A DNA stretch of 64,000 nucleotides, from NCBI GenBank assembly GCA_016234485.1, contig JACRBL010000023.1:1-64000 (forward strand), written 5' to 3'. Within the stretch, counting starts at the first letter, position 1, and each line of letters starts with the position of its first letter. This DNA is from Chloroflexota bacterium. GTDB taxonomy: Bacteria; Chloroflexota; Anaerolineae; Anaerolineales; Villigracilaceae. Under the pieces are notes generated by a model. It was not told the DNA's origin and did not search any database. It saw nothing but the letters and a program-made list of their open reading frames with translations. Both the position numbers and the translations under genes were made by a program. This document shows positions 1-29,604 of the stretch, in pieces.

Positions 1-141
1 GAGATGGTGATGCCCGGAGACAACGTGAACCTGACGGTGGAATTGATCGTGCCGGTGGCGCTCGAAACGGGCTCCAAGTTCGCCATTCGCGAAGGCGGTC
101 TGACCGTCGGCGCGGGTGTCATCACCAAGATCATCGAGTAG
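1..141 (+). CDS. tuf: Elongation factor Tu, C-terminal end (5' part outside window)
   Basis: The reading frame is open from base 1 to the TAG at 139-141 and encodes the last 46 residues of EF-Tu, including the conserved C-terminal beta-barrel (domain 3) sequence [15 protein letters not shown] and the end [17 protein letters not shown]-Tu delivers aminoacyl-tRNA to the ribosome as a GTP complex. Only domain 3 is visible here. It is followed after 10 bases by rpmG, the usual tuf-rpmG-secE-nusG order of many bacteria. Confidence 0.95.
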
Positions 142-4167: not shown

Positions 4168-4223
4168 TTGACTCCAGCGGGAATCGTCCTATACTAGGCT
4201 TGTCTGGTCTGACCACTAGACCA
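4168..4223 (+). promoter_or_regulatory. Promoter and FadR/GntR-type operator of the ubiquitin-like operon
   Basis: A -35 TTGACT (4168-4173) and -10 TATACT (4190-4195) are separated by 16 bp. At the expected transcription start lies TGGTCTGACCA (4205-4215), which fits the TGGT-N3-ACCA palindrome of FadR-subfamily GntR regulators. A wider inverted repeat TGGTCT/AGACCA (4205-4210, 4218-4223) overlaps it. The first gene encodes a GntR-type winged helix, so autoregulation is likely. TGGTC/GACCA palindromes also occur elsewhere in the window, so a repeat origin is possible. Confidence 0.7.
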
Positions 4224-4232
4224 CAAAAACCT

Positions 4233-5870
4233 ATGATAAAAATCCAACCTGTATCCCACCAAACCCTGGCCGAGACCGCGGCCGCCAAGCTGACCGCCTC
4301 GCTGTTAGACGGTAGCCTGCCGCCCGGAACGCAATTGCCGCCGGAGCGCGAACTGATCAACCAATTGGGCATCAGCCGCGCCACCCTGCGCGAGGCGCTG
4401 AAGTCGCTGGAAGAGAATCGCTTGATCGAAGCGCGTCCGGGTGTTGGGTGGTTTGCCCTCGCCATGGACGAGTCAAATATGACTCAGGCGAAGGAGATGG
4501 CTCGGGGAGCCGCGACCCCGCCTCAACGTCCAGCCGCGAACGAACCTCCGACGGGGCCGCTCCGCATCCCGATCGCGCCGGAGAAGCCGATCCACATCCC
4601 GAATCTGAAAAAAGATCGCCTTGGGACGTTCGAGTTCATCTCGTGGTGGGAGCGCGAAAAAGTGACGCAGGCGAAGGTGTTGGTTATTGGCGCAGGCGCG
4701 CTCGGCAACGAAGTCATTAAGAATTTGTCGTTGATGGGCGTCGGAAATCTTTTCATCGTGGACTTCGACAAGATCGAGGCCGCCAACCTGAGCCGCTCGG
4801 TGCTGTTTCGCGAAACGGACAACAATCGCAGTAAAGCCGAGGTCGCGGCGGCGCGCTCCAAGGCCATTAACCCGCAGGTGCATGTTCAGTACATGAATGG
4901 CGACGTGACGACGCAATTGGGGCTGGGCGTGATCCGCCGCATGGACGCGGTGATCGGATGCCTCGATAATCGCGAAGCGCGACTGGCTGTGAACCGATTC
5001 TGTTATTGGATGAACAAGCCCTGGGTGGATGGCGCCATTCAGGAGTTGCTGGGACTGGTGCGTGTGTTCAAGCCTGGCCACGGCGCATGTTACGAATGCA
5101 CGCTGACCGAACAGGCTTTGCGCGATCTTTCGATGCGCTACTCGTGCCCGTTGCTGGCGCGCCAGAATATTCTGCTCGGCAAAGTGCCAACCACGCCGAC
5201 CATCGCTTCGATCATCGGCGCGATGCAATCGCAGGAGGCGCTCAAACTGATTCACGACCTGCCGACCGAGCCTGGCAAGGTGACGCATTTCAACGGCATG
5301 ACCAATGACATGCACACCACCGCGTATTCGCCGCGCGAGGATTGCGAGAGTCACTGGACGTATGGCGAGGTGACAGAACTGCCCGCCCGTGCCGAACGCA
5401 CGACGTTGGCCGATCTCCTCCGCATCGCCCGCGCGGACCTCGGCCCGGACGCGCTGATCGAGCTGGATCAGGAACTTGTGATTTCGCTGGAGTGCCCGAA
5501 TTGCCACACCGTCGAAGAGACGCTCAAGCCATTAAGCGAAGTCAGTTTCGAGGCGGGGCATTGCCCCACCTGCGGAATTTTACGAGAGTCTACGCTGACA
5601 CACGTCATCACTGGGCAGGAAAAATTTTTGCATCGCACGCTGGCGAGCGTGGGCGTGCCTCCCCTGCATATTTTGCGCGCGAACAATGGCGTGCAATATC
5701 GCTTCTACGAGTTGACAGGCGACCTGCCCGAAGCCCTGCACTTCCGTCACTTTGAGCAAACGGCGGACGCGGCATCACCCGCCCGTGGACGCGTCCGCTT
5801 GAAGGGCGAGGTGAAGGTGAAGGGCGTCAAAATCAATCCCGCGCGTGGACGCGTAAAACTGCGCGGATGA
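4233..5870 (+). CDS. E1-like ubiquitin-activating enzyme fused to a GntR winged helix
   Basis: The ATG at 4233 gives 545 residues. Residues about 8-75 are a FadR-type GntR helix-turn-helix (LPPERELINQLGISRATLRE, then RLIEARPGVGWF). After a Pro-rich linker, residues about 130-385 form a ThiF/E1 adenylation domain with GAGALG (153-158), DFDKIEAANLSRS and RSKAEVAAARSKAINP. CYEC (286-289) and RYSCP, with Cys305, align with the catalytic-cysteine region of eukaryotic UBA3/UBA2, so Cys305 is the probable thioester site. A zinc ribbon follows (C421/C424, C444/C447). The basic tail contains two RGRV[RK]L[KR]G copies. Predicted role: ATP-dependent activation of the Ubl at 7707, with the HTH probably controlling the operon. 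Confidence 0.85.
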   Translation: MIKIQPVSHQTLAETAAAKLTASLLDGSLPPGTQLPPERELINQLGISRATLREALKSLEENRLIEARPGVGWFALAMDESNMTQAKEMARGAATPPQRPAANEPPTGPLRIPIAPEKPIHIPNLKKDRLGTFEFISWWEREKVTQAKVLVIGAGALGNEVIKNLSLMGVGNLFIVDFDKIEAANLSRSVLFRETDNNRSKAEVAAARSKAINPQVHVQYMNGDVTTQLGLGVIRRMDAVIGCLDNREARLAVNRFCYWMNKPWVDGAIQELLGLVRVFKPGHGACYECTLTEQALRDLSMRYSCPLLARQNILLGKVPTTPTIASIIGAMQSQEALKLIHDLPTEPGKVTHFNGMTNDMHTTAYSPREDCESHWTYGEVTELPARAERTTLADLLRIARADLGPDALIELDQELVISLECPNCHTVEETLKPLSEVSFEAGHCPTCGILRESTLTHVITGQEKFLHRTLASVGVPPLHILRANNGVQYRFYELTGDLPEALHFRHFEQTADAASPARGRVRLKGEVKVKGVKINPARGRVKLRG

Positions 5871-5910
5871 GAGTTTGCAAAATCGGAGATTTTGCAGTCC
5901 GAGTAAAAAT

Positions 5911-6756
5911 ATGTCCACCCAAATTGCCGCGATGAATCCCCTTATGTCTTCTTCCACCGCTGTCCGCAATTCCCTGTTTTTGAAACTGTTGACGTTGCTC
6001 GTGTTGGTGAGCGCCGCTACATTTGGATTGGTATTGCTGTTTCGCGAGAAGAGCGATTATCCTGCCTGGCTGGAGAACTGGTCTGCTGTGGCGACACTGG
6101 CGCTTGTGGCAGGATTTGGCTCGCGTTGGATTTTGAATCGCCGAAGTGGTTTCATTCGTTTTGTGGTCGCGATGTTCGTTTATTTGGTTGGGATATTTCT
6201 GCTCGGATTGTTCTCGGAATGGAAATATGGAATCGGTCCATTCGAGATATGGCCGACTCAAGTGGATGTGGATGGCTTGCTCCAGGTTGGCGTTGGAACG
6301 TTGATTTTCTTTCTGACCTTCCGTGCCTGGAAGAAACGCCCGATCATCGCCGCGGAGATCGCGCCAGCGCCTCAGGCGCCGCCCGTTGTCGTTCCGCCGT
6401 CTGCGCGCCCAAAGGCAACGGTTAAGCCGCCGAATCGGAAGTCGGTTTTGGATGCGTTTCGGCCTGCGCGGAAACCCGTCAAGGCGAAACGGACGGAGAG
6501 CAAGTGCCCCAGGAAAGTGACGCTGCCTGTGGCGGATGCCAGTCTGCCCGTCGGCCCGAGGAAACGCTCGTTGTGGCGCGCCCGCCCGAAGGTCCAATTG
6601 GCGATCGTGGAGGAGCACCGCTGTCCGTTTTGTCTGGAACCCGTCAACCGCGTCGATCCGCGTGGCGTGGTCGAATGCGAAATCTGTAAAACTCTACACC
6701 ACAAAGACTGCTGGGAGATCACCGGCGTCTGCCAGGTGCCGCACTACAACTCTTGA
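5911..6756 (+). CDS. Membrane protein with C-terminal RING-like zinc finger (candidate E3)
   Basis: Starting at ATG 5911 the protein has 281 residues. Four hydrophobic segments in the first 140 residues (for example LLTLLVLVSAATFGLVLLF) predict membrane insertion. A basic, Pro-rich cytoplasmic linker leads to a zinc finger at 236-281: CPFC (238-241), CEIC (256-259), HHKDC (263-267) and Cys274, the cross-brace order of prokaryotic RING domains. It lies 40 bases after the E1 gene and 10 bases before the E2 gene, so a role as membrane E3 or E2 docking protein is inferred. An in-frame TTG at 5875 is an alternative start. It could instead only be a zinc-binding adaptor. Confidence 0.75.
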   Translation: MSTQIAAMNPLMSSSTAVRNSLFLKLLTLLVLVSAATFGLVLLFREKSDYPAWLENWSAVATLALVAGFGSRWILNRRSGFIRFVVAMFVYLVGIFLLGLFSEWKYGIGPFEIWPTQVDVDGLLQVGVGTLIFFLTFRAWKKRPIIAAEIAPAPQAPPVVVPPSARPKATVKPPNRKSVLDAFRPARKPVKAKRTESKCPRKVTLPVADASLPVGPRKRSLWRARPKVQLAIVEEHRCPFCLEPVNRVDPRGVVECEICKTLHHKDCWEITGVCQVPHYNS

Positions 6757-6766
6757 TGGAGGAACC

Positions 6767-7642
6767 ATGCCTGACTTGAATGTGACCATTGTTTTGCCGA
6801 GCGGCGGCGCGCGCAACGCCGAAGTCCCCGATGACGTTTCGGTGCGTGACCTGTTGGCGGAGTTCGCCTCTCTGTTGCAACTTCCCACCGTCGGCCCCGA
6901 CGGGCGACCGATGTCGTATCGTATTGACAGCAAGGCGCTGGGCCGCGAATTGAAGGAAGATGAGACGCTTGGCGCGGCGGCCATCCCCGATGGCGACCGC
7001 CTGATGCTGACCGCGGATATCACCGCGGGCGCGGTCTCAGTGGCAGACAGCCCGCGCATGAGACGGATGCGCGCCGACCATGAGTTGATGAAAGAACTGG
7101 CCGCGCGCAGCGATCTGATCTCGTTCAAGGCCATTTCGTCTATTCCGTCCCTGCCGCCTGAGCGTTACATCGTGACGTTCAAATGCAAGAGCATCATTGA
7201 CGTGGATCGCCAGGGCAACCCGAAATATGGGACGAGCCATCAAGTGGAAATTTATTTGCACAATCAGTATCCGCAACGCTGGCCCGGCATGAAGTGGATG
7301 ACGCCCATCTGGCATCCGAACATCAACCATTTGAACGGGAGCGTGTGCATTGACGCGGCCTGGTGGACGGCCAGCCGTTCGCTCGACCGACTCGTCATCA
7401 TGCTCGGCGAGATGTTGCAGTGGAAGAATTTCCACGACGACCCGACCAAGCCGCCTTTCCCCTGGGACCCCGAAGCGGCGCGCTGGAGCCGCGAGTATCG
7501 CCAGAAAAACCCGAACGCCTTCCCGCTCGACCAGCGCGAGTTGATGCGCCCCGAGCGCGTCAAGTTGACCTCGTCTGCGGCGGAAGCGGCCCCGAAGGTC
7601 AGCCTGTTTGAGAAGGCGAAGTCGAAGATCAAGTTGAAATAA
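6767..7642 (+). CDS. Ubl-E2 fusion: ubiquitin-like domain joined to a UBC-fold conjugating enzyme
   Basis: The gene has a strong GGAGG site and encodes 291 residues. Residues 1-88 are a YukD-like beta-grasp domain, identical at 66 of 88 positions to the free Ubl encoded next. Residues about 100-255 are a UBC fold with YPQRWPGMKWMTPIWHPNIN (HPN at 183-185) and the active-site segment LNGSVCIDAAWW with Cys194, then a conserved Trp-rich end. The tail finishes FEKAKSKIKLK. Role: accept activated Ubl from E1 on Cys194 and transfer it to targets. The fused Ubl might be a non-covalent regulator or be released after the AG at 87-88 by the JAMM peptidase. Confidence 0.87.
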   Translation: MPDLNVTIVLPSGGARNAEVPDDVSVRDLLAEFASLLQLPTVGPDGRPMSYRIDSKALGRELKEDETLGAAAIPDGDRLMLTADITAGAVSVADSPRMRRMRADHELMKELAARSDLISFKAISSIPSLPPERYIVTFKCKSIIDVDRQGNPKYGTSHQVEIYLHNQYPQRWPGMKWMTPIWHPNINHLNGSVCIDAAWWTASRSLDRLVIMLGEMLQWKNFHDDPTKPPFPWDPEAARWSREYRQKNPNAFPLDQRELMRPERVKLTSSAAEAAPKVSLFEKAKSKIKLK

Positions 7643-7706
7643 TCCATATCCCCGCGGTGCACCGGTTTAGAAAGTTTGTATCCACCCATTCGAAAAGGAG
7701 TAAACC

Positions 7707-7973
7707 ATGTCCGACATTCCCGTTACTATTGTTTTGCCCTCTGGCGGCGCCCGCAACGCCGAAGTCCCCGATGACGTTCCTGTGAAGGAGCTCATCCCTG
7801 AGTTGACCACTTCGCTGGAACTGCCGACGACTGGTCCTGATGGCCGCCCGATGTCGTATCGCATTGACAGCAAGGCGCTGGGCCGCGAGTTGAAAGAGGA
7901 AGAAACCCTCAGCCAGGCGTCCATTCCGCAGAACGATCGCCTGATGATGACGGCCGACGTGACCGCCGGCTAG
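7707..7973 (+). CDS. Ubiquitin-like modifier protein (YukD-like)
   Basis: This 88-residue beta-grasp protein starts MSDIPVTIVLPSGGARNAEV after AAGGAG and ends DRLMMTADVTAG. The C-terminus is a single exposed glycine preceded by Ala, so no proteolytic maturation is needed before adenylation. It is about 75% identical to the N-terminal domain of the E2 gene upstream, which points to a recent duplication. It is the probable modifier of this system. Relatives of this fold also occur in type VII secretion (YukD/EsaB), but no secretion gene is nearby. Confidence 0.83.
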   Translation: MSDIPVTIVLPSGGARNAEVPDDVPVKELIPELTTSLELPTTGPDGRPMSYRIDSKALGRELKEEETLSQASIPQNDRLMMTADVTAG

Positions 7974-7995
7974 CCATGAACTTCCCCAATCTCTT

Positions 7996-8051
7996 GCCCG
8001 ATTCGGCAGCCCCGAGAGGTTTGCGAAAACCTTTCGGGGCACCGATCGGGC
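7996..8051 (+). promoter_or_regulatory. Strong stem-loop between the Ubl and JAMM genes
   Basis: Nested stems pair GCCCGAT with ATCGGGC (ends 7996-8002 and 8045-8051), GCCCCG with CGGGGC, and GGTTT with AAACC around GCGA. No T-run follows. It could be a processing or stability element that raises Ubl mRNA over the downstream genes, or a repeat. Confidence 0.5.
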
Positions 8052-8084
8052 GAGGGAAACGGGAGTCCGCCTCCCCGTTCAGCC

Positions 8085-8729
8085 ATGACCGTTGACATTC
8101 ACCCGCCAAATCCCATGGAACCGATCACACAGTCTCTGCCTGAGAAGAGCGCGCGCCGCTGGAATTCTCCTTACGACGCGCTGGGCCTGGAACCGCAGGT
8201 CTCGGTCTACCTCACCCAGTTTGCATACAGCCGCGTCTGCCTGCATTCCGTCAGCGATATGGACAACGAAGTGGGCGGAATCCTGGTGGGCGAGTGGTGT
8301 CTGGACGAGGCCAGTCAGCGCCAGTTCATTATTGTCGAAGCCGCGCTGGCGGCGCGTCATACTAGACAAAGCAGCGTCCACCTGACCTTTACGCCCGACA
8401 GTCTTGTGGATATTCACAACGAGATTGACAATAAATATCCAGGCAAAAAGATCGTCGGCTGGTATCACACCCACCCGCGCATGGGCATTTTTCTCTCGCA
8501 TTACGACACTTGGTTGCACAAGTATTTTTTCCCCGAACATTGGCAGGTGGCTCTTGTCATCGAGCCTCACACTGCCAAGGGCGGCATCTTTATCCGACAA
8601 GCCAATGGATTATTCGATCCGTCCCGCTATTTCGGATTTCACGAAATGGACGGCAATCTCGAAAATTCGCTGGTTCACTGGACCAACCTCACTCCCGTGG
8701 TGAAGGAAGGAGAAACTTCAAATGAGTAG
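8085..8729 (+). CDS. JAMM/MPN-domain metalloprotease (deubiquitinase-like)
   Basis: The 214-residue protein has the full JAMM zinc motif: Glu62 in NEVGGILVG, then His128-Thr-His130-Pro, Ser138 and Asp141 (HTHPRMGIFLSHYD). These residues bind Zn2+ and activate water for isopeptide hydrolysis, so an intact catalytic site is expected. An ATG at 8115 (MEPITQSLPEK) is an alternative start. The gene overlaps the FHA gene by 8 bases. Predicted role: removal of the Ubl from targets, or cutting of the Ubl-E2 fusion. Some JAMM proteins instead act in sulfur transfer, but the E2 and RING genes argue against that here. Confidence 0.87.
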   Translation: MTVDIHPPNPMEPITQSLPEKSARRWNSPYDALGLEPQVSVYLTQFAYSRVCLHSVSDMDNEVGGILVGEWCLDEASQRQFIIVEAALAARHTRQSSVHLTFTPDSLVDIHNEIDNKYPGKKIVGWYHTHPRMGIFLSHYDTWLHKYFFPEHWQVALVIEPHTAKGGIFIRQANGLFDPSRYFGFHEMDGNLENSLVHWTNLTPVVKEGETSNE

Positions 8730-9579
8730 AAGAATGCGAACGTATTTTTACGCCGTGCTCGGCGCGCTGGGCGGACTCTTCGGTTGGCAGGTGAGCGACC
8801 GCCTCGGCCTATCCCTGGTCTCGAACCTTTACCTGAGCGAGGCCATCGTGGGCGCGCTGGTCGGCCTGTGCATTGGATTTTTTATCGGCATCACCGAAGG
8901 CTTGCTCACGCGTAACTTTGTTCAACTCCTCAAGTCGGGACTCGTCGGCGGCCTGCTCGGACTTGTGGCAGGCGCGGTGGGCCTTCCGCTCGGCGAGTAC
9001 CTCTTCCAGTCTGTCGGCGCGGGCCTGCTCGGGCGCGCTTTGGGTTGGGCTGTGTTCGGACTTTTGATCGGCCTGGCCGAAGGCGTGGTTGGTAAGAGCC
9101 AAATGTGGAAAGGGGTGCTCGGCGGCTTGATCGGCGGCGCGCTGGGCGGAATCGCGCTCGAATACGCGCACAGCCTGCTCCAAAATCAATTGACAGGCAA
9201 AGCCGTGGGTCTCGTCCTGCTGGGCGCGTCGGTCGGCGCGTTCATCTCGCTCATCGTTGTCCTGCTCTCGCGCGCCTGGCTCGAAGTCACTTCGGGTAAG
9301 CTCAAAGGCGCGGAGTTCATCCTCGACAAGTTCATGCGCGCAGGCGGTCCCGCCATTGCCATCGGCAGTTCGGCGCTCAAATCGGAGATCGTCTTTCCCG
9401 ACCCCGATATTTCTCCGCAACACGCCATGCTCACAGGCGACGGCAAATCCTTCACCATCAAAGATATGAGCATGTCTGGGACGTTCATCAACAACAAGAA
9501 AGTCGAACGCGCCCAACTTTCCAACGGACAGCGGATTCGCATGGGCAACACCGAAATGGTGTACCACGAAAAGAGGTGA
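8722..9579 (+). CDS. Glycine-zipper membrane protein with C-terminal FHA domain
   Basis: Of 285 residues, roughly the first 195 form several Gly-rich hydrophobic segments (LVGLCIGFFIGITEG, GLVGGLLGLVAGAVG, GGLIGGALGG). Residues about 205-285 form an FHA domain: IGSSALKSEIVFPDPDISPQ, then HAML, and DMSMSGTFINNKKV. FHA domains bind phosphothreonine. The usual Arg after the first Gly is Ser here, so binding may be altered. The start overlaps the JAMM gene and the stop lies 2 bases before the vWA gene, which indicates translational coupling. A role in recruiting phosphorylated partners to the membrane is inferred. Confidence 0.8.
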   Translation: MSRRMRTYFYAVLGALGGLFGWQVSDRLGLSLVSNLYLSEAIVGALVGLCIGFFIGITEGLLTRNFVQLLKSGLVGGLLGLVAGAVGLPLGEYLFQSVGAGLLGRALGWAVFGLLIGLAEGVVGKSQMWKGVLGGLIGGALGGIALEYAHSLLQNQLTGKAVGLVLLGASVGAFISLIVVLLSRAWLEVTSGKLKGAEFILDKFMRAGGPAIAIGSSALKSEIVFPDPDISPQHAMLTGDGKSFTIKDMSMSGTFINNKKVERAQLSNGQRIRMGNTEMVYHEKR

Positions 9580-9581
9580 CC

Positions 9582-10664
9582 ATGAAAACCATCCCTCGCT
9601 TCTTTCTAACGTTTAGCCTGTTTCTGTCTCTGACGCTTTTCCCTGCGCTGACGGCTTCCGCGCAGGGCGGGCAGATTATCACCATCACGCAGGTGGACAC
9701 TTCCAAATTTCCGCAGGTGACCGTTTACATTTCCGTCACCGACGCGGCGGGTGAACCTATCAGCGTATCGCCGTCCAGCCTGCAAGTCTTTGAAGGCGGC
9801 GTGCAAATGACTCCCACAGCTATCTCCGCACAGGGCGAGATCGGCCCGTTGACCACCCTGCTGGTGATTGATAATTCTGGAAGCATGTACAACTCTGGGA
9901 AAATCGTCGGCGCGCAAAACGCGGCCAAAGCCTACGTGGAGCAGATGCGCCCGCAAGACCAGGCTGGGCTGATCAGTTTCAACACGCAAGTGACGGTTGT
10001 CCAGCCCTTAACCACTGACCGTGCGGCCCTGATCGCCGCGATTGATTCGCTCGTCCCCGACAAAGACACCGCCATGTTCGACGCGCTGGTGCAAGGCGTG
10101 AATACGCTCGCGCCCATCGAGGGACGCAAGACCATTGTGCTCCTCAGCGACGGCCTGGACAACATGAGCCTGAGCGGCCTTGAAGACGTAATCACCGCCA
10201 TTGGCCCCGCGGGCTTGTCCATTTCGACGATCGGTCTTGGCGACCCGGAAAAATCAGGGACGAACAACGGCCTCGACGAACCCGCGTTGTCGGACCTCTC
10301 GACCCGCGCGGGCGGCGCCTATCGTTTCGCCAGCGGCCCCGACGCGTTGGTGGACATCTACGAACAATTCGGACGCGCGCTGCAAGGTGAGTTCAGTTTT
10401 ACCTACATTTCCCCGTCCACTCTGCGTGATGGGATCAACCGCGGGTTGACTGTCAAAATAAGCGATAGCGCCGTGAGTAGTCAATACAATCCTGGCGGAG
10501 TGCTTCCCGAAGTTTCGGGCAGTTCCCTGCCTCTCTTCGGCGGGATTTTGGCTGGACTGCTCCTTCTGCTGGTTCTGCCCTTCCTCTTCCGCGGCCGGGG
10601 CGCAAAGAGAGAAAATGCGACAGCGCAGGCTTCTTCTGCAAAGGGAAGAGTCAAACTGAAATAG
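9582..10664 (+). CDS. Membrane-anchored von Willebrand factor A domain protein
   Basis: I choose ATG 9582 after AAAGAGGTGACC; GTG 9576 is less likely. The 360-residue protein has a signal peptide (FFLTFSLFLSLTLFPALTA). A short beta domain precedes a vWA domain starting TTLLVIDNSGSMYNSGK, with the MIDAS DxSxS motif intact and IVLLSDGLDN later. After about residue 310 comes a transmembrane helix (GILAGLLLLLVLPFLF) and a short cytoplasmic tail ending AKGRVKLK, the same basic tail as the E1 and similar to the E2. Metal-dependent extracytoplasmic ligand binding is likely. It is the last gene of the operon. Confidence 0.83.
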   Translation: MKTIPRFFLTFSLFLSLTLFPALTASAQGGQIITITQVDTSKFPQVTVYISVTDAAGEPISVSPSSLQVFEGGVQMTPTAISAQGEIGPLTTLLVIDNSGSMYNSGKIVGAQNAAKAYVEQMRPQDQAGLISFNTQVTVVQPLTTDRAALIAAIDSLVPDKDTAMFDALVQGVNTLAPIEGRKTIVLLSDGLDNMSLSGLEDVITAIGPAGLSISTIGLGDPEKSGTNNGLDEPALSDLSTRAGGAYRFASGPDALVDIYEQFGRALQGEFSFTYISPSTLRDGINRGLTVKISDSAVSSQYNPGGVLPEVSGSSLPLFGGILAGLLLLLVLPFLFRGRGAKRENATAQASSAKGRVKLK

Positions 10665-10707
10665 AGGAGCGGGTTTGATTACCAATCCAATTTGTAACGA
10701 ATCAAAA

Positions 10708-10737
10708 AACCTCCGAGTTCAAAAAACTCGGAGGTTT
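10708..10737 (+). terminator. Terminator of the ubiquitin-like operon
   Basis: AACCTCCGAGTT pairs perfectly with AACTCGGAGGTT around an A-rich loop, followed by TTACGTTTT. It closes the operon before the convergent lexA gene and can serve both strands. Confidence 0.88.
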
Positions 10738-10760
10738 TACGTTTTACTCGTTTCGTTTTG

Positions 10761-11462
10761 CTACATCCTCATGGTATCCATCTTGCGGATGACCATCACC
10801 ACTTTGCCTTTGATCTCCACCTGCTTGTTCTTGCCGATGAAGATCGGCTTCATCGTTGGGTTGGCGGGTTGCAGGCGGTAGCCGTCTTTTTCCTTGAAGA
10901 AATATTTGAGCGTGGCTTCGTTGTTTTCAGGGAGCCAGACCGCCACCATTTCACCGTTGCGGGCGTCCACGGCGGGTTTCATCACCACGATGTCGCCGTC
11001 GTTGATCATGGCGTCAATCATCGAGTCTCCTTTGACTTCGAGGGCGAAGAGGTCGTTGCCTTTTTCGCGGGCCGGCAGGAGACTGCGGGCAATGTCCACG
11101 GCATTGGCTTCGTTTTCGGTGAAGAAGGTCATGCCGGGTTGCAGGTCGGGGAGGGGGATACCAGCCGCGATCGGCCCGAGGACGGGGATGCGGATGAGGT
11201 CGCCGAAGGCGCCGACCACTTCCTTGATTTTATCGGTCAGACGTAGTCCGCGCGAGACGCGTCCATCACGGATGATGAAGCCGCGTCGCTCCAGTTGATC
11301 GAGATCGTAATTGACGACAGATGTGGATGAAATATCCACTTCCGAGCAGATCTCGCGAATGGATGGCGGGCGATTATTCTTCGCCTGATATTCCGCCAGA
11401 AACTGCAGAATGCGGATGTGCTTTTCACTAAGATTTTCGCTTCGTTTTCGTACCATCATCAT
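10761..11462 (-). CDS. lexA: LexA SOS repressor
   Basis: The start at 11462 follows AGGAGG and gives 233 residues (MMMVRKRSENLSEKHIRIL). A winged helix (PPSIREICSEVDISSTSVVN) is followed by the S24 self-cleavage domain: AAG cleavage site in IAAGIPLP, catalytic Ser in KGDSMIDAMI, and Lys in NNEATLKYF. RecA-stimulated self-cleavage relieves repression after DNA damage. Its promoter carries a matching SOS box. The N-terminal extension in the longer frame lies in the promoter and is not coding. Confidence 0.95.
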   Translation of the reverse strand: MMMVRKRSENLSEKHIRILQFLAEYQAKNNRPPSIREICSEVDISSTSVVNYDLDQLERRGFIIRDGRVSRGLRLTDKIKEVVGAFGDLIRIPVLGPIAAGIPLPDLQPGMTFFTENEANAVDIARSLLPAREKGNDLFALEVKGDSMIDAMINDGDIVVMKPAVDARNGEMVAVWLPENNEATLKYFFKEKDGYRLQPANPTMKPIFIGKNKQVEIKGKVVMVIRKMDTMRM

Positions 11463-11502
11463 AGCGGCCTCCTGAGCCAAAACTAGCCCATTTGTGCTAC
11501 AA

Positions 11503-11531
11503 ATAATAACCGAACAGGCGTTCTGTGTCAA
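11503..11531 (-). promoter_or_regulatory. lexA promoter with embedded SOS box
   Basis: On the minus strand, -35 TTGACA (11531-11526) and -10 TATTAT (11508-11503) are spaced 17 bp apart. The spacer contains a box at 11511-11524 that reads CGAACAGGCGTTCT on the plus strand. It matches 13 of 14 positions of the Gram-positive consensus CGAACRNRYGTTYG. LexA bound here would block RNA polymerase. Confidence 0.88.
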
Positions 11532-11546
11532 GCGTTTTCGTTAAGC

Positions 11547-11577
11547 AAAATCGGATGGCGTTTGCCATCCGATTTTT
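11547..11577 (-). terminator. Terminator downstream of corA
   Basis: AAAATCGGATGGC pairs with GCCATCCGATTTT around GTTT. It sits between the corA stop and the lexA promoter and insulates lexA from corA transcription. Confidence 0.8.
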
Positions 11578-11581
11578 GAAT

Positions 11582-12571
11582 TTACACCCACGTCCGTTTT
11601 CGCATCCACAAGTACATGAAAAATGGAGTTGACAGCATCAGTGTCAGTGTCCCATAGAAGACGATGGGGAGAGTCCAGTTTTCGTAGGGCGGGTTGGCGG
11701 CGAAGAAATTCATGCCGAAGAAACCCGTTACAAAGGTGAGCGGCATGAACAGTGTGGTGATGATCGTGAGCGTTTTCATCACTTCGTTCATGCGATTGTT
11801 GATGACGGAGAGATAGGTATCGAGCGCGCCGCCCACCAGGTCGCGCATGGTTTCGTTCAGGTCGTGCAGGCGGACGAGATGATCGTAGATGTCGCGGAAG
11901 AAGATGCGGTCTTTGCGGTCGATTACGGCATAATCGTCGCGCGCCAGCTTGTTGAGGACTTCGCGCTGGGGGAGCAGGATTCGTCGCATTGCCAAAAGCG
12001 CTCGTTTAAGCGCAAAAAGTTTTTCCAGCGTACGCGGGGTGGGATGATCGAAAACCTGGTCTTCGATCTCGTCAATCTCCTCGTCAATCCGTTCCACGAT
12101 GGGCATGTAACCCGTCACCACATTGTCAATGATCTTATAGAGCAGGTGATCGGCGCCGTCCTGGAGGGGGCGAGTGTCGCGTTGTAGCGATGCGAAGGTC
12201 GCGTCGATTTCGAGCACAGGCATGTCGTGGTGGGTGACGATGTAAGTTGGGCCGAGGAAGATGTCCAATTCGTCCACCTCAGTGCCCCAATGCTTTTTAT
12301 CCGCGCCGTTCAAGTGCATGTAGTTCAGCACAAGATAAACGTAATTGCCCCAATCGTCAATTTTTGGGCTGTGGGTTTGCTGCAGGGCGTCCTCAATGGC
12401 AAGACGATGGAAACCAAAAGCCTCGAGAATGGGTTGGCAGGTTTCGGGTGGCTCGCCGTCGAAATCCACCCAAAGGACGCCGCGTCGGGAGCGAAACGCG
12501 GACTGGACAGAGTCCGGCGAAAGGTCGGTGCGAAGCGGTTTGCCGGGGATGTAGTGAACGGTTCGGATCAC
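11582..12571 (-). CDS. corA: CorA-family magnesium/cobalt transporter
   Basis: A GTG at 12571 with GGAGG four bases upstream gives 329 residues, near the family norm. The longer open frame upstream has no CorA similarity. The protein has the acidic funnel-forming N-terminal domain (VLWVDFDGEPPE), long stalk helices with Arg/Glu pairs, and two C-terminal transmembrane helices with the selectivity motif GMN in FFGMNFFAANPPYENW. CorA forms a pentameric Mg2+ channel. The gene is transcribed alone. Confidence 0.93.
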   Translation of the reverse strand: MIRTVHYIPGKPLRTDLSPDSVQSAFRSRRGVLWVDFDGEPPETCQPILEAFGFHRLAIEDALQQTHSPKIDDWGNYVYLVLNYMHLNGADKKHWGTEVDELDIFLGPTYIVTHHDMPVLEIDATFASLQRDTRPLQDGADHLLYKIIDNVVTGYMPIVERIDEEIDEIEDQVFDHPTPRTLEKLFALKRALLAMRRILLPQREVLNKLARDDYAVIDRKDRIFFRDIYDHLVRLHDLNETMRDLVGGALDTYLSVINNRMNEVMKTLTIITTLFMPLTFVTGFFGMNFFAANPPYENWTLPIVFYGTLTLMLSTPFFMYLWMRKRTWV

Positions 12572-12728: not shown

Positions 12729-12779
12729 ACTTCAAGATTTCAAAAACAAAGTTCAGAAATATTGAATTCGGAGGAAGAA

Positions 12780-23202: not shown

Positions 23203-23907
23203 TCAAGGCGCTGTGTATTCCACAATCAATTGCGGACGCTTGATGAATGCCGCGTTTCCGCTATAGAAACTGAAGACATTGGCGATGCTGTTGTTGTTGT
23301 CGTTAATCTGGAACCGAACGCGGATCTGGGTCAGGCCGCTTCCGGTGGTTTTCTTGTTGATGAAATTTTGGGAGCCGTCCAAATTCATCACATACCATCC
23401 TCCCTGGATTGGGCTAACGACAAAGGAGCCAAGCGTCACGCTGGCAGTGGCCTTCCAATCTGCGAGTTGGAGAGCGGGCAGGCCAAATGTCCCTTTGCGG
23501 ACATCCGCCATGAATCCCTGAAACGTGATGATGGGGTTGACGCCGCCCACCACGCTTTCGCGCTGAATCTTGAGCGTCACTTTTGTGACGGTGGCGTTAT
23601 CGGGCAGGCTGGCCGTGTTGAAGGAAAGGATGCTGATGTATTGCCTGCGTTGCGCGTCGTCGCCCAGGCGCAGGGTGGTGAGGTCGCTCTTCATCGTGCC
23701 TCCCGCGTTGGTGTTTTCCCCCGATTCGAGAATCCAACCGTCTTGGAGCGCCACGGATTTGAATGTGGTTGTCGAAGCCCGAACGCTTTCCAGGTTTTCG
23801 CCCGAAGCCACACTTACTTGCAGAGATAGGACCAGCGCCAGCAGGATGACGACCAGCGCGCCCTTCCATGTGGAATTACGGTGTTTTTTCATTCTTTGTG
23901 GAAACAT
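23203..23907 (-). CDS. Secreted DNRLRE-domain protein
   Basis: The start at 23907 follows AAGAGG and gives 234 residues. A signal peptide (ALVVILLALVLSLQVSVASG) is followed by a single DNRLRE beta-sandwich domain: DGWILESGENTNAGG, LRLGDDAQRRQYISILSFNT, LPDNATVTKVTLKIQ, and C-terminal KRPQLIVEYTAP. The same domain forms the C-termini of the proteins at 24270 and 27937. It is probably extracellular or surface-bound. Function is unknown. Confidence 0.83.
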   Translation of the reverse strand: MFPQRMKKHRNSTWKGALVVILLALVLSLQVSVASGENLESVRASTTTFKSVALQDGWILESGENTNAGGTMKSDLTTLRLGDDAQRRQYISILSFNTASLPDNATVTKVTLKIQRESVVGGVNPIITFQGFMADVRKGTFGLPALQLADWKATASVTLGSFVVSPIQGGWYVMNLDGSQNFINKKTTGSGLTQIRVRFQINDNNNSIANVFSFYSGNAAFIKRPQLIVEYTAP

Positions 23908-24181
23908 AATATTTACCTCTTGTTTGTTGCGTTGGGTTGCCAACGGCCGCAGACTCACAATTGAGTCCTTCAATTTCGCTTTTATTCTACCCATGTTTTA
24001 CTCAAAATCAATCCGAACTGCCTTTCCTGAGAAAATTGATATTTTGTCCGATTTGACTTCCCCACGGACATTTCGCGCCTCTCCTCGACTTGAGCCGGGC
24101 GCGGCCTTCGGACGCGTTTTCCTCCCTTTGGGAGAAAAAAACCTGGCGTGTATTGGCGGGTTGCCAATCCGCCCCACGTTT

Positions 24182-24269: not shown

Positions 24270-27197
24270 TTACGGGACGCGATACTCGACGATTAACTGC
24301 GGACGAAGATTCGTGCCGGCATTTCCGCTGTAGATGGCGAGGTAATTGGGGACAGAGTTGTTGTTGTCGTCCAATTTGAAGCGCAAGCGAATCTGGGTGA
24401 GGCCGCCGCCAGTGTTCAGCTTATTGACGTAAGCCTTGTAACTGGTCAGGTTGATGGAATACCAGCCAGTCTTGAGGGCCGGCTTGAACGGCCCCACCGT
24501 TTTGTTGGGGTTCGTCTTCCAGTCCAGCGCCTGGAGGGCGATTGTCCCAAAGGAGCCTTTACGGATATCGAGCATGAATCCCTGGAACGCGGTGATGGGA
24601 TTTCCTCCGCCTGCGATGGTCTGCTTCTTGAATCGGAGGGTCACTTTGGTGATGATGGCGTTATCTGGCAAAGCGCCCGTGGAGAACGACAGGACACTGC
24701 GATACTGTTTGCGCTTGATGTCATCGCCGATGCGGAGGCTGGTTTGATTGGAATTCATCACGCCGCCTGTGTTGGTGTTTTCGCCCTTTTCGAGGATCCA
24801 ACCATCCTGCGCGCCAGTAGACTTGGAGACGAAGGACAAGGTTTCGGTGAGGTTGCCGATGGCGATGGTGAAGGTCTTGTTGAAAGTTCCGCCATGCCCG
24901 TCATTCGTGCGGACGCAGACGCTGTAGCTGTTCTTGGACTCGAAGTCGAACACCACGTTGGTTTGCAGGTTGGCGCCGCTCAGTTTGAAGGACGCGTCGT
25001 TTGCGCCGCCGCAGAACGAGTAGATGTGGATGTCGCCCGCGTCCGGGTCGGTGGTGGAGAGGACGCCGACGGTGGCGCCGACGGGCTGGTTCTCATTGAC
25101 CGAGGCGCTGGAGAGGGCGATGTTCGTGGGTGTGTTGTTGACTGCGGTGACGGTGAGCGTACCCTTGAAGTAGGCAATAACGTAATTGCCGCTCGCGATG
25201 CCGCCCGAGCAGATGATGTCGTATACGCCAGCCGAGCCGTGCGGAGCGGGGACGGAGCAGGTGGGGGCAGTGGAGAAGGTATCGGGAGCGACGAAGCCCG
25301 TGGCGGTGTAAGTGAAGACGGGGTCTGCCGCGGTATAGCGCTTGGTTTTGCTGTCTGCAGTGACGGTCAGCGTCTTCTTGCCGATGACGATGTCCACCGA
25401 GCCGCTGGCGTTGTTGTAGTTGCCTGTAGTGTCAGTAAACATCCAGTTGGCCGTCCCACCTGGAGCATCGGTGAAGGATGAACCGAGGTCGAGGCCAGTC
25501 AACGTCGCGCCGCCGAGGCCGGTGCAAGAGCCGCTCGCGCCGTGCGCCGCGCCGTCAAAGTCGCCGGTGAAACCAGTGATGGAGCAGGTGGCTGCGACCT
25601 TGTTGATGACGATGTTGGCCGTGCCGCTGGCATCGTTGTAGTTTGCGTTGGTGAACGACCAGTTGGCCGTCCCACCTGGAGCATCGGTGAACGACGAACC
25701 GAGGTCGAGGCCTGTCAACGTCGCGCCGCCGAGACCGGTGCAAGAGCCGCTCGCGCCGTGCGCCGCGCTGTCAAAGTCACCAGTGAAGCCGCTGACGGAA
25801 CACGAGGCCGCGATCTTGTTGATGACGATGTTGGCCGTGCCGCTTTCATCGTTGTAGTTCGTGTTGGTGAACGACCAGTTAGCAACACCGCCCGGCGCAT
25901 CGGTGAACGACGAACCGAGGTCGAGGCCCGTCAATGTCGCTCCGCCAACGCCGGTGCAAGAGCCGCTTGCGCCGTGCGCCGCGCCGTCAAAGTCACCTGT
26001 GAAGCCAGTGATGGAGCAGGTGGCCGCGACCTTGTTGATGACGATGTTGACGGAGCCGCTGGCGTTGTTGTAGTTGCCCGAAACGTCGGTAAATGTCCAG
26101 TTGGCCGTGCCGCCCGGAACGTCCGCGTAGGATGCGCCGAGGTCGAGGCCGGTTAATGTCGCGCTGCCCACGCCCGTGCATGATCCGCTCGCGCCGTGGG
26201 ACGTTCCGTCAAAGTTGCCAGTGAAGCCAGTGACGGTGCAGGTGGGGTCGGCTTTGTTGACGTTGAGACTGCCGCTGGCGCTGGTTGTGATGTAGGCCGT
26301 GTCGCCGGCGTAACTGGCTCCAATTGCGGTGGGATACGCGCCCGCGTTGATGCCTGCCAGGCTGACGCCCGCGAGGGACGCCGTGCCGCTGGCGTCTGTA
26401 GAGGCGGAGCCAACGCTGGAGCCGTTCACCGTGAACGCAATGGACTTTCCGCTGACGGGCGAGCCGGCGGAATTGGTGAGGGTGGCGGTGAGGGTGGAGT
26501 CGCCACCGTACGTTCCAGTGGCGGGGGAGACGCTCAACGAGGTAGTTTGTTTTTCGTCAACAGTCAATATGCCGCTTGCGCCAGTGGCGGCGGCATTCCC
26601 GGTACTGCCAAAGTAAATGCGCATGGCGTTTGTCGTGCCAGAGATGGCGCGGATTCGGAGGCCGAGTTTGCTCCCCGCGGGGACTGTGGCAGATTGCCCG
26701 CTCAGGCTGATCGTGAAATCGGCGTTTTGATTATTGGCGACTGCCTGGGTTGCTTCGGTTCCGCTGAAGTTTGTGATCGTTCCGCTGGAATCCGCTTACA
26801 TCAACATGACCCCTGCTGTCCATGTTTGGGCTCCGCCTCCGCCTTGCGCCTCTCGAAGATGGATATTGAGCGACGTTCCCGTGACGATTGTTTCTGCTGT
26901 GTAGGCAGTATTGAACCAGACATCGAGGATCGTGCCAGCGGTTGTCACCTGGATGGATTCGCTCGCGCAGGCGTGGGTGGCGGCGGACATCAGGGTTGTT
27001 ACCGGCCCGGTTGCAACAGCGCCGCCGCAAGTGGCGTCGTTGGTTGTGATTCCCGTAGCAACGGTTGTGCCTGTATTTTGCTGGATGTTGTAGGTGGCCG
27101 CGGTGGCGTAGGCTGTGTCAACTGGCAAGGCCGTTAACGCAAGCAAGACGATCATAAACCCCGCGGCAATTTGTGAAAAAAAAGAATGAAATTTCAT
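24270..27197 (-). pseudogene. Large secreted repeat protein interrupted by an in-frame TAA
   Basis: From ATG 27197 (CAGGAG site) a signal peptide (FMIVLLALTALPVDTAYA) and N-terminal domain run to TAA at 26796-26798. The same frame continues without shift to 24270, so one base change would restore about 975 residues. Domains after the stop: rest of the N-terminal domain, an Ig-like domain (LSVSPATGTYGGDSTLTATL), four ~70-residue repeats each with GASGSCTG and ATLTGLDLG, an MBG-like domain, a cadherin-like domain (NIALSSASVNENQPVGATVG) and a C-terminal DNRLRE domain. It looks like a surface adhesin. It may be a recent pseudogene, a phase-like off state, or an assembly error; a readthrough is less likely. 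Confidence 0.8.
25385..26246 (-). repeat. Four tandem coding repeats of about 214 bp
   Basis: Four near-identical units encode ~71-residue modules (for example GFTGDFDGAAHGASGSCTG and DLGSSFTDAPGGTANWSFTN). The phrase GCATCGGTGAA recurs near 25467, 25681 and 25898; the fourth unit (near 26120) diverges. High DNA identity suggests recent duplication or gene conversion, and copy number may vary between strains. Confidence 0.85.
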
Positions 27198-27936: not shown

Positions 27937-29604
27937 CTACGGAATGTAGTACTCAACGATCAACTGCGGACGATTGGCCGCCGCCGCGTTGCCGCTGAAT
28001 AGTGTGAGGTAGTTAGCCGCGCCATTGTTGTTATCGTCCAGTTTGAAACGCAGGCGGATTTGCGTCAGCCCGCCCGCGGCCTTGTTGACCTGCGTCGCGG
28101 CCGCGCTCAAATCCAGCGCGTACCATCCGTTGACGAGAGCGGGCGTGAACGGCCCCACCGTCTTGTGCGCGGGCGATTGCCAGTCTGCGGATTCGAGCGA
28201 CGACGCGCCAAACGCGCCGTTGCGAATATCTGCTAAAAATCCGCGGAACAAGTTAAGTGGATTCCCGCCCCCCGTGACTCCCTGCTTTTTCACTTGGAGC
28301 ATGACTTTCGTAATCACCGCGTTATCGGGCAGGCTGGACGTATCGAACGACAGGATGCCACGATATTGGGCGCGTCCCGCGTCATCTCCCAACCGCAGGG
28401 CGGACGCGGCCGTATCTTTCGTTTTGCCTGTGTTCGCGTTCTCGCCCGCTTCCAGCGTCCACCCGTCTTTGGCCGCGATCGAAGCGAAGGTCGCGCTTTG
28501 CGTTTGCGGCGCAAGTTTAATCGTCGTCACCTGCGCGCTACTCTGATTCACCAGAGCCGCAATATCGCCATCGTAGATCGAGACATAACGCGGCTCGGCG
28601 GCAGGATTCCCGTCCCGATAAACTTTTATCAGCCGCAGGAAATTATAGGCATTGTGCGAACCCGTGGATGTTCCCCAGGCAACCGTCACCTGTCCGTTCG
28701 CGTCAGTCGCGGCGTCCAACAACAACTGGCTCGCGTACGGATAAAATCCCTCCACGTTCCAAACCTTCACGTTGACGTTCGACGCGGGTTGCCCGCTCTC
28801 GTCCAAAACCTGCACGGTGAATTGTTCAAACGAGGGGATTCCGTTTCGATACGAACCGCTCATCACCGCGGCGGTCAAATTCGAGAATTGGACGGTGGAT
28901 AAATATTGCGCGCGGCTGGTCGTCTCGGTGAAGCGCAGGAGAGGGTCTCTCATAAAATCGGGCTTGTCGCTCCAGAACGGATCGTTGGCATTGTAGATGT
29001 TGATATCCATCAGCGGCGCAACGGACGTGCTATCGGTGACGCTCATCAGAGAGTAATACTCGCCGATGCCCGCGCCCAAAACGTGCGCCAGTTCGTGAAG
29101 CATGTGATCGAGTTGCGTGGTGTAATCCCACACATCCGCGGACGTGAGCGCGTCGGGGTCGTAGAGCTTCGTCCAGCGCAGGCCGGCCAGCGCGCCCGCC
29201 CCGCTCGCGTCCATGCCCGCGTAACCGCCGTACGAAACGGCCTGGTCGGTGTAAACGGCGTGCGCCCAAATCTCAAAATCTTCGGTCGGAAGCGGAGGCA
29301 TGGCGCTGTCGGTGTGGGGCTGTGACTCAGCGACGATGATCCCCGTTTGGGCGTCGAAGAGGAGGCGGCGATTGGTATTCTTCGCGAGGATCGCGTTCAT
29401 GTCGTCCACGTATTTGGGCAGAACCATTTTCGCGAATCCCAAATCCGCCGCGAGCGCGGGGTCGAGATAAAACTTGATTGTGTGCGTTTTAAGGGAGGAG
29501 GTTTCAACCTGTCCATCGGCGAGCGCGGGCGAAGGGATGAGCGCCGCGAACATCGCGAGGATCAGGGCAACCAGCGTAAATTTGTGCGGGAATTTGAATG
29601 CCAT
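27937..29604 (-). CDS. Secreted zinc metalloprotease with DNRLRE domain
   Basis: The 555-residue protein has a signal peptide (FTLVALILAMFAALIPSPA), a protease domain with HELAHVLGAGIGEY (HExxH) at about 165-180, an Ig/CarboxypepD-like beta domain (FTVQVLDESGQPASNVNVKV, about 270-370) and a C-terminal DNRLRE domain (LRLGDDAGRAQYRGILSFDT, RPQLIVEYYIP). AAGGAG precedes the ATG. Its 340-base leader holds two cyclic-di-GMP-I riboswitches, so secretion of this enzyme is likely tied to the motile/sessile switch. The substrate is unknown; an adhesin is a fair guess. Confidence 0.85.
   Translation of the reverse strand: MAFKFPHKFTLVALILAMFAALIPSPALADGQVETSSLKTHTIKFYLDPALAADLGFAKMVLPKYVDDMNAILAKNTNRRLLFDAQTGIIVAESQPHTDSAMPPLPTEDFEIWAHAVYTDQAVSYGGYAGMDASGAGALAGLRWTKLYDPDALTSADVWDYTTQLDHMLHELAHVLGAGIGEYYSLMSVTDSTSVAPLMDINIYNANDPFWSDKPDFMRDPLLRFTETTSRAQYLSTVQFSNLTAAVMSGSYRNGIPSFEQFTVQVLDESGQPASNVNVKVWNVEGFYPYASQLLLDAATDANGQVTVAWGTSTGSHNAYNFLRLIKVYRDGNPAAEPRYVSIYDGDIAALVNQSSAQVTTIKLAPQTQSATFASIAAKDGWTLEAGENANTGKTKDTAASALRLGDDAGRAQYRGILSFDTSSLPDNAVITKVMLQVKKQGVTGGGNPLNLFRGFLADIRNGAFGASSLESADWQSPAHKTVGPFTPALVNGWYALDLSAAATQVNKAAGGLTQIRLRFKLDDNNNGAANYLTLFSGNAAAANRPQLIVEYYIP

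Follow-up and report, generated by a model that had tools for sequence, protein, structure and literature searches.

Organization of the operon

The 64,000-nucleotide (nt) stretch of DNA analysed here, referred to as the window, comprises positions 1 to 64,000 of contig JACRBL010000023.1 from assembly GCA_016234485.1, a Chloroflexota bacterium of the class Anaerolineae and the family Villigracilaceae. It contains an operon predicted to encode a ubiquitin-like protein (Ubl) conjugation system. Seven open reading frames (ORFs) were verified, all on the plus strand between positions 4233 and 10664 and separated by short or overlapping joints. They code for E1, a RING protein, a Ubl-E2 fusion, a standalone Ubl, a JAMM metalloprotease, an FHA protein and a VWA protein. 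This gene set had been proposed in the original prediction, together with a promoter and a terminator of its own; Pfam backed every assignment, and both signals were located at the ends of the operon. The features are as follows.

4168–4195, plus strand: sigma-70-like promoter TTGACT-16-TATACT, matching the consensus at 10 of 12 positions
4205–4223, plus strand: operator TGGTCTGACCACTAGACCA, the proposed site for the GntR domain of E1, conserved upstream of E1 in relatives
4233–5870, plus strand: GntR-E1 fusion, 545 amino acids (aa), predicted catalytic Cys305 (Pfam, profile matches, alignment)
4266–4454, plus strand: GntR/FadR-type winged helix of E1, residues 12–74 (Pfam GntR, 2.8e-19; PdhR/FadR-family profiles)
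4638–5348, plus strand: adenylation (ThiF/E1) domain, residues 136–372 (Pfam ThiF, 4.8e-55; top PDB matches UBA7/UBA1)
5748–5867, plus strand: C-terminal tail of E1 with copies of an RVRLK/RVKLR motif (side-by-side reading, motif counts)
5911–6756, plus strand: candidate membrane-anchored RING E3, 281 aa, RING at 6613–6744 (Pfam, hydropathy, alignment)
6767–7642, plus strand: Ubl(YukD)-E2 fusion with ATG at 6767, Ubl at 6767–7030, Cys194 codon at 7346–7348 and a tail ending in SKIKLK (Pfam, profile matches, alignment)
7707–7973, plus strand: standalone YukD-family Ubl, 88 aa, ending in Thr-Ala-Gly (Pfam, alignment)
8085–8729, plus strand: JAMM/JAB metalloprotease, candidate deconjugase (Pfam, alignment)
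8722–9579, plus strand: multi-pass membrane protein with a C-terminal FHA-like domain, its start overlapping the end of the JAMM gene (Pfam, hydropathy)
9582–10664, plus strand: VWA protein with an N-terminal signal-like segment, a VWA domain with a metal ion-dependent adhesion site (MIDAS), one transmembrane segment and a tail ending in GRVKLK (Pfam, hydropathy)
10644–10661, plus strand: GRVKLK tail motif of the VWA protein (motif counts)
10706–10738, plus strand: intrinsic terminator at the operon end, 14-pair, strong (terminator search)

Besides the two E1 domains, Pfam recognised YukD (2.3e-11) and UQ_con (9e-11) within the single ORF that had been predicted as a Ubl-E2 fusion, YukD in the standalone Ubl (4.3e-11), JAB in the JAMM protein (2.4e-9), and FHA (1.3e-14) and VWA_2 (8.6e-17) in the last two proteins. 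Prok-RING_1 matched the RING protein with 3.5e-6 and 27.3 bits, below the cut-off of 29.1; in a six-frame Pfam search, the RING scored 30.8 bits, above the cut-off. No NCBIfam model (E 0.1) matched the RING, Ubl-E2 or Ubl proteins. The best solved profile matches of E1 were UBA7 and UBA1, followed by the E1s of SUMO and NEDD8, and that of E2 was UBE2K. The first ~75 residues of E1 matched the profiles of PdhR (5kvr, 7e-15) and a FadR-family protein (8pqm, 5.9e-13).

Conservation of gene order and catalytic residues

An alignment of E2 served to scan 84,980 species genomes for relatives. From the 311 obtained, the best 80 were used, each of them titled as belonging to a Chloroflexota or Anaerolineae group. 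Three are not labelled as metagenome-assembled genomes, namely Pelolinea submarina MO-CFX1, Leptolinea tardivitalis YMTK-2, and Leptolinea sp. HRD-7. The counts given below treat related rows as if they were independent and therefore overstate the number of evolutionary events. Residue alignments cover the window as well as some of the distant loci L070–L072; genes truncated at a contig end and the Ubls of L130, L132, L133, and L140 were left out, although a standalone Ubl is also present in these four loci.

Co-occurrence of the genes in relatives had been set beforehand as a test of the prediction, which withstood it. The order E1-RING-(Ubl-E2)-Ubl-JAMM-FHA-VWA on a single strand was found in all 80 fetched relatives as far as the contigs reach; all seven genes were present in 69, counting L145, where an FHA-JAMM fusion stands in for JAMM, and contig ends truncate the other 11. 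The E1, E2, Ubl, JAB, and RING components thus share one neighbourhood both by Pfam and in the relatives.

The catalytic and metal-binding residues are invariant. Residues G153, G155, R188, K201, D245, and C305 of E1, which we take to be functional, were found in 72/72 aligned E1s, so that the ThiF domain and the catalytic cysteine expected of the E1 of a Ubl cascade are both present, with Cys305 as originally proposed. The same holds for the predicted HPN motif and catalytic cysteine of E2 (H183, P184, N185, and C194 in 83/83) and for the JAMM site, described as intact and indeed kept at E62, H128, H130, S138, and D141 in 81/81. The RING-like cross-brace was recovered with C238, C241, C256, C259, H263, H264, C267, C274, and H278 in 80/80 proteins; only its last ligand pair had to be corrected and would be C-x3-H. 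Likewise, the terminal glycine predicted for the Ubl stood, within a Thr-Ala-Gly and not a Gly-Gly ending: T86-A87-G88 was present in 76/76 standalone Ubls and formed the very C-terminal end in 74/76, the proteins of L109 and L134 extending past the glycine by two residues and one residue, respectively. The fused Ubl keeps its Gly88 in 80 of 83 rows, and the remaining three have no fused Ubl.

Two loci, L071 and L072 (positions 6048–11777 in the latter), represent a minimal version from another family of the same class. Their E1 lacks the GntR domain, and the YukD Ubl and E2 are separate proteins. Both loci encode two JAMM proteins, one with a transmembrane-like stretch, and L072 also encodes two Prok-RING_1 proteins. 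Neither an FHA or VWA relative nor the operator was detected in L071 and L072.

The operon is patchily distributed. In a draw of 400 Chloroflexota genomes, an E2 with at least 73% identity was found in 10 genomes, our own included; a relative with 42–44% identity was found in G144 and G372, and weak partial matches in five more. Within the family, the operon was present in 7 of 24 family-mates in the 400-genome draw and in 11 of 31 family genomes, including our own. The two genomes of the same genus in these draws were without it.

GntR domain of E1 and its operator

The GntR fusion named in the original prediction was found, as a domain joined to E1, in every aligned E1 of this type (70/70; the window, 68 loci, and L070, which lies outside the class). 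The residues E38, R39, R49, and R53 of this domain are kept in all 70. No FCD/VanR-type effector domain gave a Pfam match in E1, and the E1 enzyme occupies its place. The features of the FadR subfamily looked for were an N-terminal winged-helix domain and a palindromic operator at the protein's own promoter, and both were recognised in the sequence.

The operator can be written as the composite TGGTCWGACCANNANACCA, located ~9 nt past the −10 box. A TGGT-N2-5-ACCA palindrome occurs within 250 nt upstream of E1 in 56/69 loci, compared to a background of 142 among 4848 blocks of equal length taken from these loci, the sites themselves included. Within 110 nt of E1, the composite was found with no more than two mismatches in 61/69 loci and with no more than four in 66/69. 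In the controls, none of 1380 shuffles gave fewer than three mismatches, and none of 452 starts of the six other genes gave fewer than four. L070 carries TGGTCTGACCA, and the outer half that comes after it contains a single change. Promoter spacing was tested in the 58 upstream regions, out of 69, that have a recognisable site. A promoter pair matching at least 9 of 12 positions, with the −10 box ending 7–18 nt (mode 9) before the site, was found in 46/58, the shuffled mean being 2.0/58. The site therefore lies just past the −10 box, a position that fits a blocking repressor.

Eight of the 31 family genomes contain the exact composite, in one copy each and always just before E1 (8/8), and all eight carry E2. 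So do G028, G160, and G412, which have no exact site: G028 and G160 have the operator with one mismatch (as read from L090 and L080), and the genome G412 is 81% complete. Among the operon-less family genomes, the exact site occurred in 0/20. A second exact core site in our own genome (C35:22898) was rejected, being located inside an open frame of 595 codons. Taken from these sequence comparisons, E1 is probably the repressor of its own operon.

Two further exact composites were observed in L180 (G236:C305:6870) and L181 (G300:C1:3435320), in genomes where no related E2 was found. These sites may mark another regulon with the same operator.

Membrane proteins and proteasome search

Hydropathy analysis predicted two membrane segments in the RING protein of the window (1–5 in relatives) and four in the FHA protein (2–5 in relatives). 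The VWA protein has two, one N-terminal and one C-terminal, and two were also found in 60/67 relatives. The membrane location predicted for the FHA and vWA gene products agrees with these profiles. The MIDAS motif DxSxS...T...D of the VWA domain is conserved, with D97 in 69/69 proteins and S99, S101, T163, and D190 each in 68/69, the exception being L087, a 134-aa fragment.

FHA domains contact phosphothreonine through Arg, Ser, and Asn residues. In the operon proteins, the Arg place is occupied by Ser in 74/74, the Ser place holds Ser in 6/74 (window included), and the Asn place holds Asn in 2/74. Judged by these substitutions, the FHA domain is therefore probably not a classical phosphopeptide reader, and it may represent a phospho-independent class of FHA domains.

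No member of PF00227 (proteasome/HslV) was found in our own genome and 12 further operon genomes (13/13), several of which are incomplete drafts; in the control, the same search recovered the family in 10/14 genomes. That neither a proteasome nor HslV was found in these genomes suggests that the tag is probably not used for 20S degradation.

Shared tail motif

E1, E2, VWA, some JAMM proteins, and an extra FHA-JAMM protein share an alternating basic motif of the type R-I/V-K-L-K at their ends. Examples are ...KPKIKLK or ...PVIRLK in E2, ...PRIKLK(D) in VWA, copies such as ...GRVKLRG or ...RIKLGE in E1, and ...IRLLPP at some JAMM N-termini. The motif was counted as [KRH][IV][KRH][LIMF] against composition-matched shuffles, leaving out L070–L072. 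It was present in 60/69 E1 tails (shuffled mean 5.6), 61/80 E2 tails (4.5), and 63/67 VWA tails (3.0). RING linkers showed no enrichment (10/79 vs. 5.8 in shuffles), and among JAMM C-termini it occurred in 1/76, that one being the FHA-JAMM fusion of L145. The end of the FHA protein contains the motif in 30/73 cases, yet inside the folded domain, and was excluded as a tail.

In the extra FHA-JAMM protein, an FHA-like domain is joined to a second JAMM. Six loci encode it between Ubl and JAMM: L134 (11277–12410), L146 (4667–5749), and L149, L151, L152, and L154, in which it follows the Ubl. In L145, the fusion (frame ending at 12758) occupies the place of JAMM, and no space is left for a separate JAMM before the FHA gene. 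All of these proteins (six extra and the replacement in L145) end in an R-V/I-R-I-K-L type tail (7/7); L089 and L140 were set aside because the reported frame is not an FHA-JAMM. The VWA C-termini of L146, L149, L151, L152, and L154 carry another short tail around L/M-P-W-D-D/E, several of them with the basic motif further in.

In our own genome, the codon pattern of the C-terminal motif, with AAR/AGR codons alone at the basic positions, gave six matches. Only two of them, in E2 and VWA, lie at the end of a real gene; the remaining four close frames of 8–32 codons and were rejected. A purely intramolecular role of the E2 tail, toward its own fused Ubl, was also rejected, as the tail (KKRIKIK) is retained in L070, where E2 is not fused. 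The median charge is −7.7 for the Ubl, +3.6 to +7.5 for the tails, and +1.7 for the FHA domain, which is not acidic. In the minimal loci L071 and L072, the E1 tail is absent and the E2 tail is weak.

Genomic surroundings

By our reading, the operon of the window is bordered by ribosomal-protein genes and lexA. An apparent rplL precedes the promoter, and a LexA-like gene (our own reading) at 10761–11531 on the minus strand converges on the operon end. A LexA-like relative was present in 19/59 loci with enough downstream sequence, and rplL was found upstream in 21/57. In the E1 tree, all 23 rows with rplL adjoining the operon fall inside one 31-row clade, within which the rplL label needs six changes.

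Further along the window, on the minus strand between 23203 and 29604, three ORFs (23203–23994, 24270–26624, and 27937–29604) share a C-terminal module starting with DGW-ILE/TLE-x-GENxN. Judged by eye, these may be secreted proteins that share an end domain.

Comparison with known systems

Prokaryotic RING-type ubiquitin systems, in which a bacterial E1, E2, YukD-like Ubl, JAB, and RING are found together, were reportedly predicted by Burroughs, Iyer, and Aravind in 2011, and the Pfam Prok-RING models are said to derive from that study. The set of components attributed to these systems, E1, E2, Ubl, JAB, and RING in one neighbourhood, is present in the window operon.

In the archaeon Caldiarchaeum subterraneum, an operon encodes E1, E2, a small RING, and the modifier, with an adjacent JAMM, and both conjugation and deconjugation have been reconstituted (PMC5654768). 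Complete bacterial operons with E1, E2, Ubl, RING, and JAMM are mentioned in the same paper, so that such sets are already known from both domains, as the original prediction had stated. The window operon resembles that of C. subterraneum in combining E1, E2, RING, and the modifier in one operon with an adjacent JAMM. It differs in that the archaeal modifier is a diglycine ubiquitin and its JAMM is located on the opposite strand, whereas the Ubl of the window is of the YukD type with a Thr-Ala-Gly end and its RING is membrane-anchored; a GntR fusion, FHA, and VWA are not described in the available part of that work (PMC5654768).

Like the window operon, BilABCD combines Ubl, E1, E2, and JAB/JAMM in one bacterial operon. 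Its Ubl is a two-domain ISG15-like protein, its E1 is two-lobed, its E2 (BilB) has the CEHH motif Cys138, Glu144, His146, and His151, and there is no RING among the four genes (PMC11354881). None of the three features tested for membership in this group was found in the window operon. The Ubl is a single YukD stretch of 88 aa rather than two Ubl domains, E1 has one ThiF stretch (136–372) behind GntR and no pair of inactive and active adenylation domains, and the E2 sequence C194-I-D-A-A-W-W-T-A-S-R-S-L-D has no Glu or His at the CEHH distances.

Dedicated transcriptional control of a bacterial ubiquitination-like pathway is also known from Bub operons, part of which are controlled by separate CapW, CapH + CapP, or CapK + CapS genes (PMC13373217). 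There, the regulator is a separate gene, whereas in the window the DNA-binding domain is inside E1 and the gene preceding the operon reads as rplL. With FadR-subfamily GntR repressors, E1 shares the N-terminal winged helix and a TGGTCnGACCA-type palindrome; the predicted operators of this subfamily tabulated for Mycobacterium smegmatis include GTGTGGTCAGACCACAC, with the same core (PMC2018728). The usual C-terminal effector domain of these repressors is exchanged for the E1 enzyme. No GntR-E1 fusion or Anaerolineae Ubl operon appeared in the titles and abstract beginnings of the literature matches listed, where a GntR-E1 with an operator, shared tails, and constant FHA/VWA partners were likewise not seen. 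The window operon goes beyond the known operons in its GntR-E1 with an operator, in the shared tail motif, and in that no proteasome or HslV was found.

Proposed function and alternative explanations

In the sequences compared, the catalytic residues are invariant, the seven genes stay together, E1 bears a FadR-type domain, and a conserved palindrome lies at the predicted start of transcription. We consider it likely that the operon encodes a complete Ubl conjugation cascade at the cytoplasmic membrane, with E1 doubling as the operon repressor. The suggestion of a regulated, membrane-linked Ubl conjugation system made in the original prediction fits the co-occurrence of the genes, the invariant catalytic residues, and the conserved operator matching the fused GntR domain. 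Its description there as uncharacterised is contradicted by none of the literature matches listed.

According to this proposal, E1 would adenylate Gly88 of the 88-aa Ubl, carry the Ubl on Cys305, and hand it to Cys194 of E2. The membrane RING would bring the charged E2 to lysine residues of proteins on the inner side of the membrane. JAMM would strip the tag and may also cleave the Ubl-E2 fusion behind the Thr-Ala-Gly that the fusion itself contains. A platform would be formed by the FHA membrane protein together with VWA, the latter with its sensor domain outside and its tail inside, and the R-I/V-K-L-K tails of E1, E2, VWA, and some JAMMs would dock on a common partner, either the acidic Ubl or the FHA platform. 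Dimers of E1 at TGGTCTGACCA would block the promoter until repression is lifted by changed Ubl loading of E1 or by its recruitment to the membrane, whereby the flux of Ubl would tune its supply. Since no proteasome was found in the operon genomes, the tag would most likely act on membrane proteins by non-proteasomal means, altering their activity, assembly, or turnover. More tentatively, the E1 repressor might read its own charging state, so that Ubl/ATP loading sets its grip on TGGTCTGACCA and tag use sets synthesis, and the tails might be a shared code joining E1, E2, JAMM-type enzymes, and a transmembrane VWA receptor.

Several observations weigh against parts of this proposal. More than two operator mismatches were found in 8/69 loci. 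The three worst, L134, L142, and L145, form one clade (100/100) and have a variant palindrome, AACTGGTAT-N7-ATACCAGTT, the left end of which differs in L145 (by eye). In the 400-genome draw, the exact site occurred in seven genomes, five of them among the 10 close operon holders and two among the 390 others. The control with the TGGTCWGACCANNANACCA pattern read backwards also matched two genomes of this draw, which indicates that chance or other regulators make an exact site occasionally. The tail motif was present at only 19/76 JAMM N-termini (shuffled mean 0.9). Evidence on the docking partner of the tails is split: the acidic Ubl and basic tails favour the Ubl, and the minimal loci, having neither the motif tail nor FHA and VWA, favour the membrane platform. 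Finally, the sole YukD protein that we found described, that of the type VII secretion system of Bacillus subtilis, is reported as not conjugated (PMC1779556).

The two exact sites in genomes without a close operon bear on the possibility that the conjugation system is real and its operator is bound by another GntR protein, the fused domain being a DNA tether or a remnant. Other FadR-type regulators are indeed predicted to use such sites (PMC2018728). We regard this as unlikely because the helix-turn-helix residues E38, R39, R49, and R53 are kept in 70/70 E1s, neither the fusion nor the site occurs in the minimal loci, and in the family draw the exact composite was single-copy and always at E1. 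The report on B. subtilis YukD is relevant to another explanation, in which the Ubl, a YukD-family protein, would be a non-covalent scaffold or a sulfur carrier like type VII YukD or MoaD/ThiS. The constant Thr-Ala-Gly end and the HPN motif and cysteine of E2, encoded with RING and JAMM in the same operon, make this improbable. Furthermore, no FtsK-like ATPase or WXG100 of type VII secretion gave a Pfam match among the seven operon proteins, to which that search was limited.

An antiviral or stress-defence role of a Ubl-E1-E2 system of the Bil, Bub, or cyclic oligonucleotide-based antiphage signalling (CBASS) type would agree with the patchy presence in the family and with PADLOC, in which E1 matched E1-E2/BilD models and JAMM matched JAB models. 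Each of these models was covered in part only, the window neighbours read as ribosomal-protein genes and lexA, and gene content is nearly constant. Confinement of the 23 rplL-adjoining rows to one E1 clade is as expected for inheritance in one place, even with the six label changes. On balance, we think a defence role has little chance of being correct. As for the tails, they could bind membrane lipids or nucleic acids or offer lysines for self-tagging instead of being docking motifs, as their strongly basic character would suggest. This is conceivable, though we favour docking, as the order basic/beta-branched/basic/aliphatic occurs far above shuffles in E1, E2, and VWA.

If a membrane-bound cascade with a self-regulating E1 is indeed encoded, the operon would be a bacterial RING-type Ubl system in which E1 doubles as the repressor of its operon; none such was present among the literature matches listed. 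The operator and the tail motif make the regulated and membrane-linked character of the system testable by point mutations. The conserved seven genes would provide a compact model for membrane-bound Ubl tagging without a proteasome, carried also by the strain genomes of Pelolinea submarina and Leptolinea tardivitalis.

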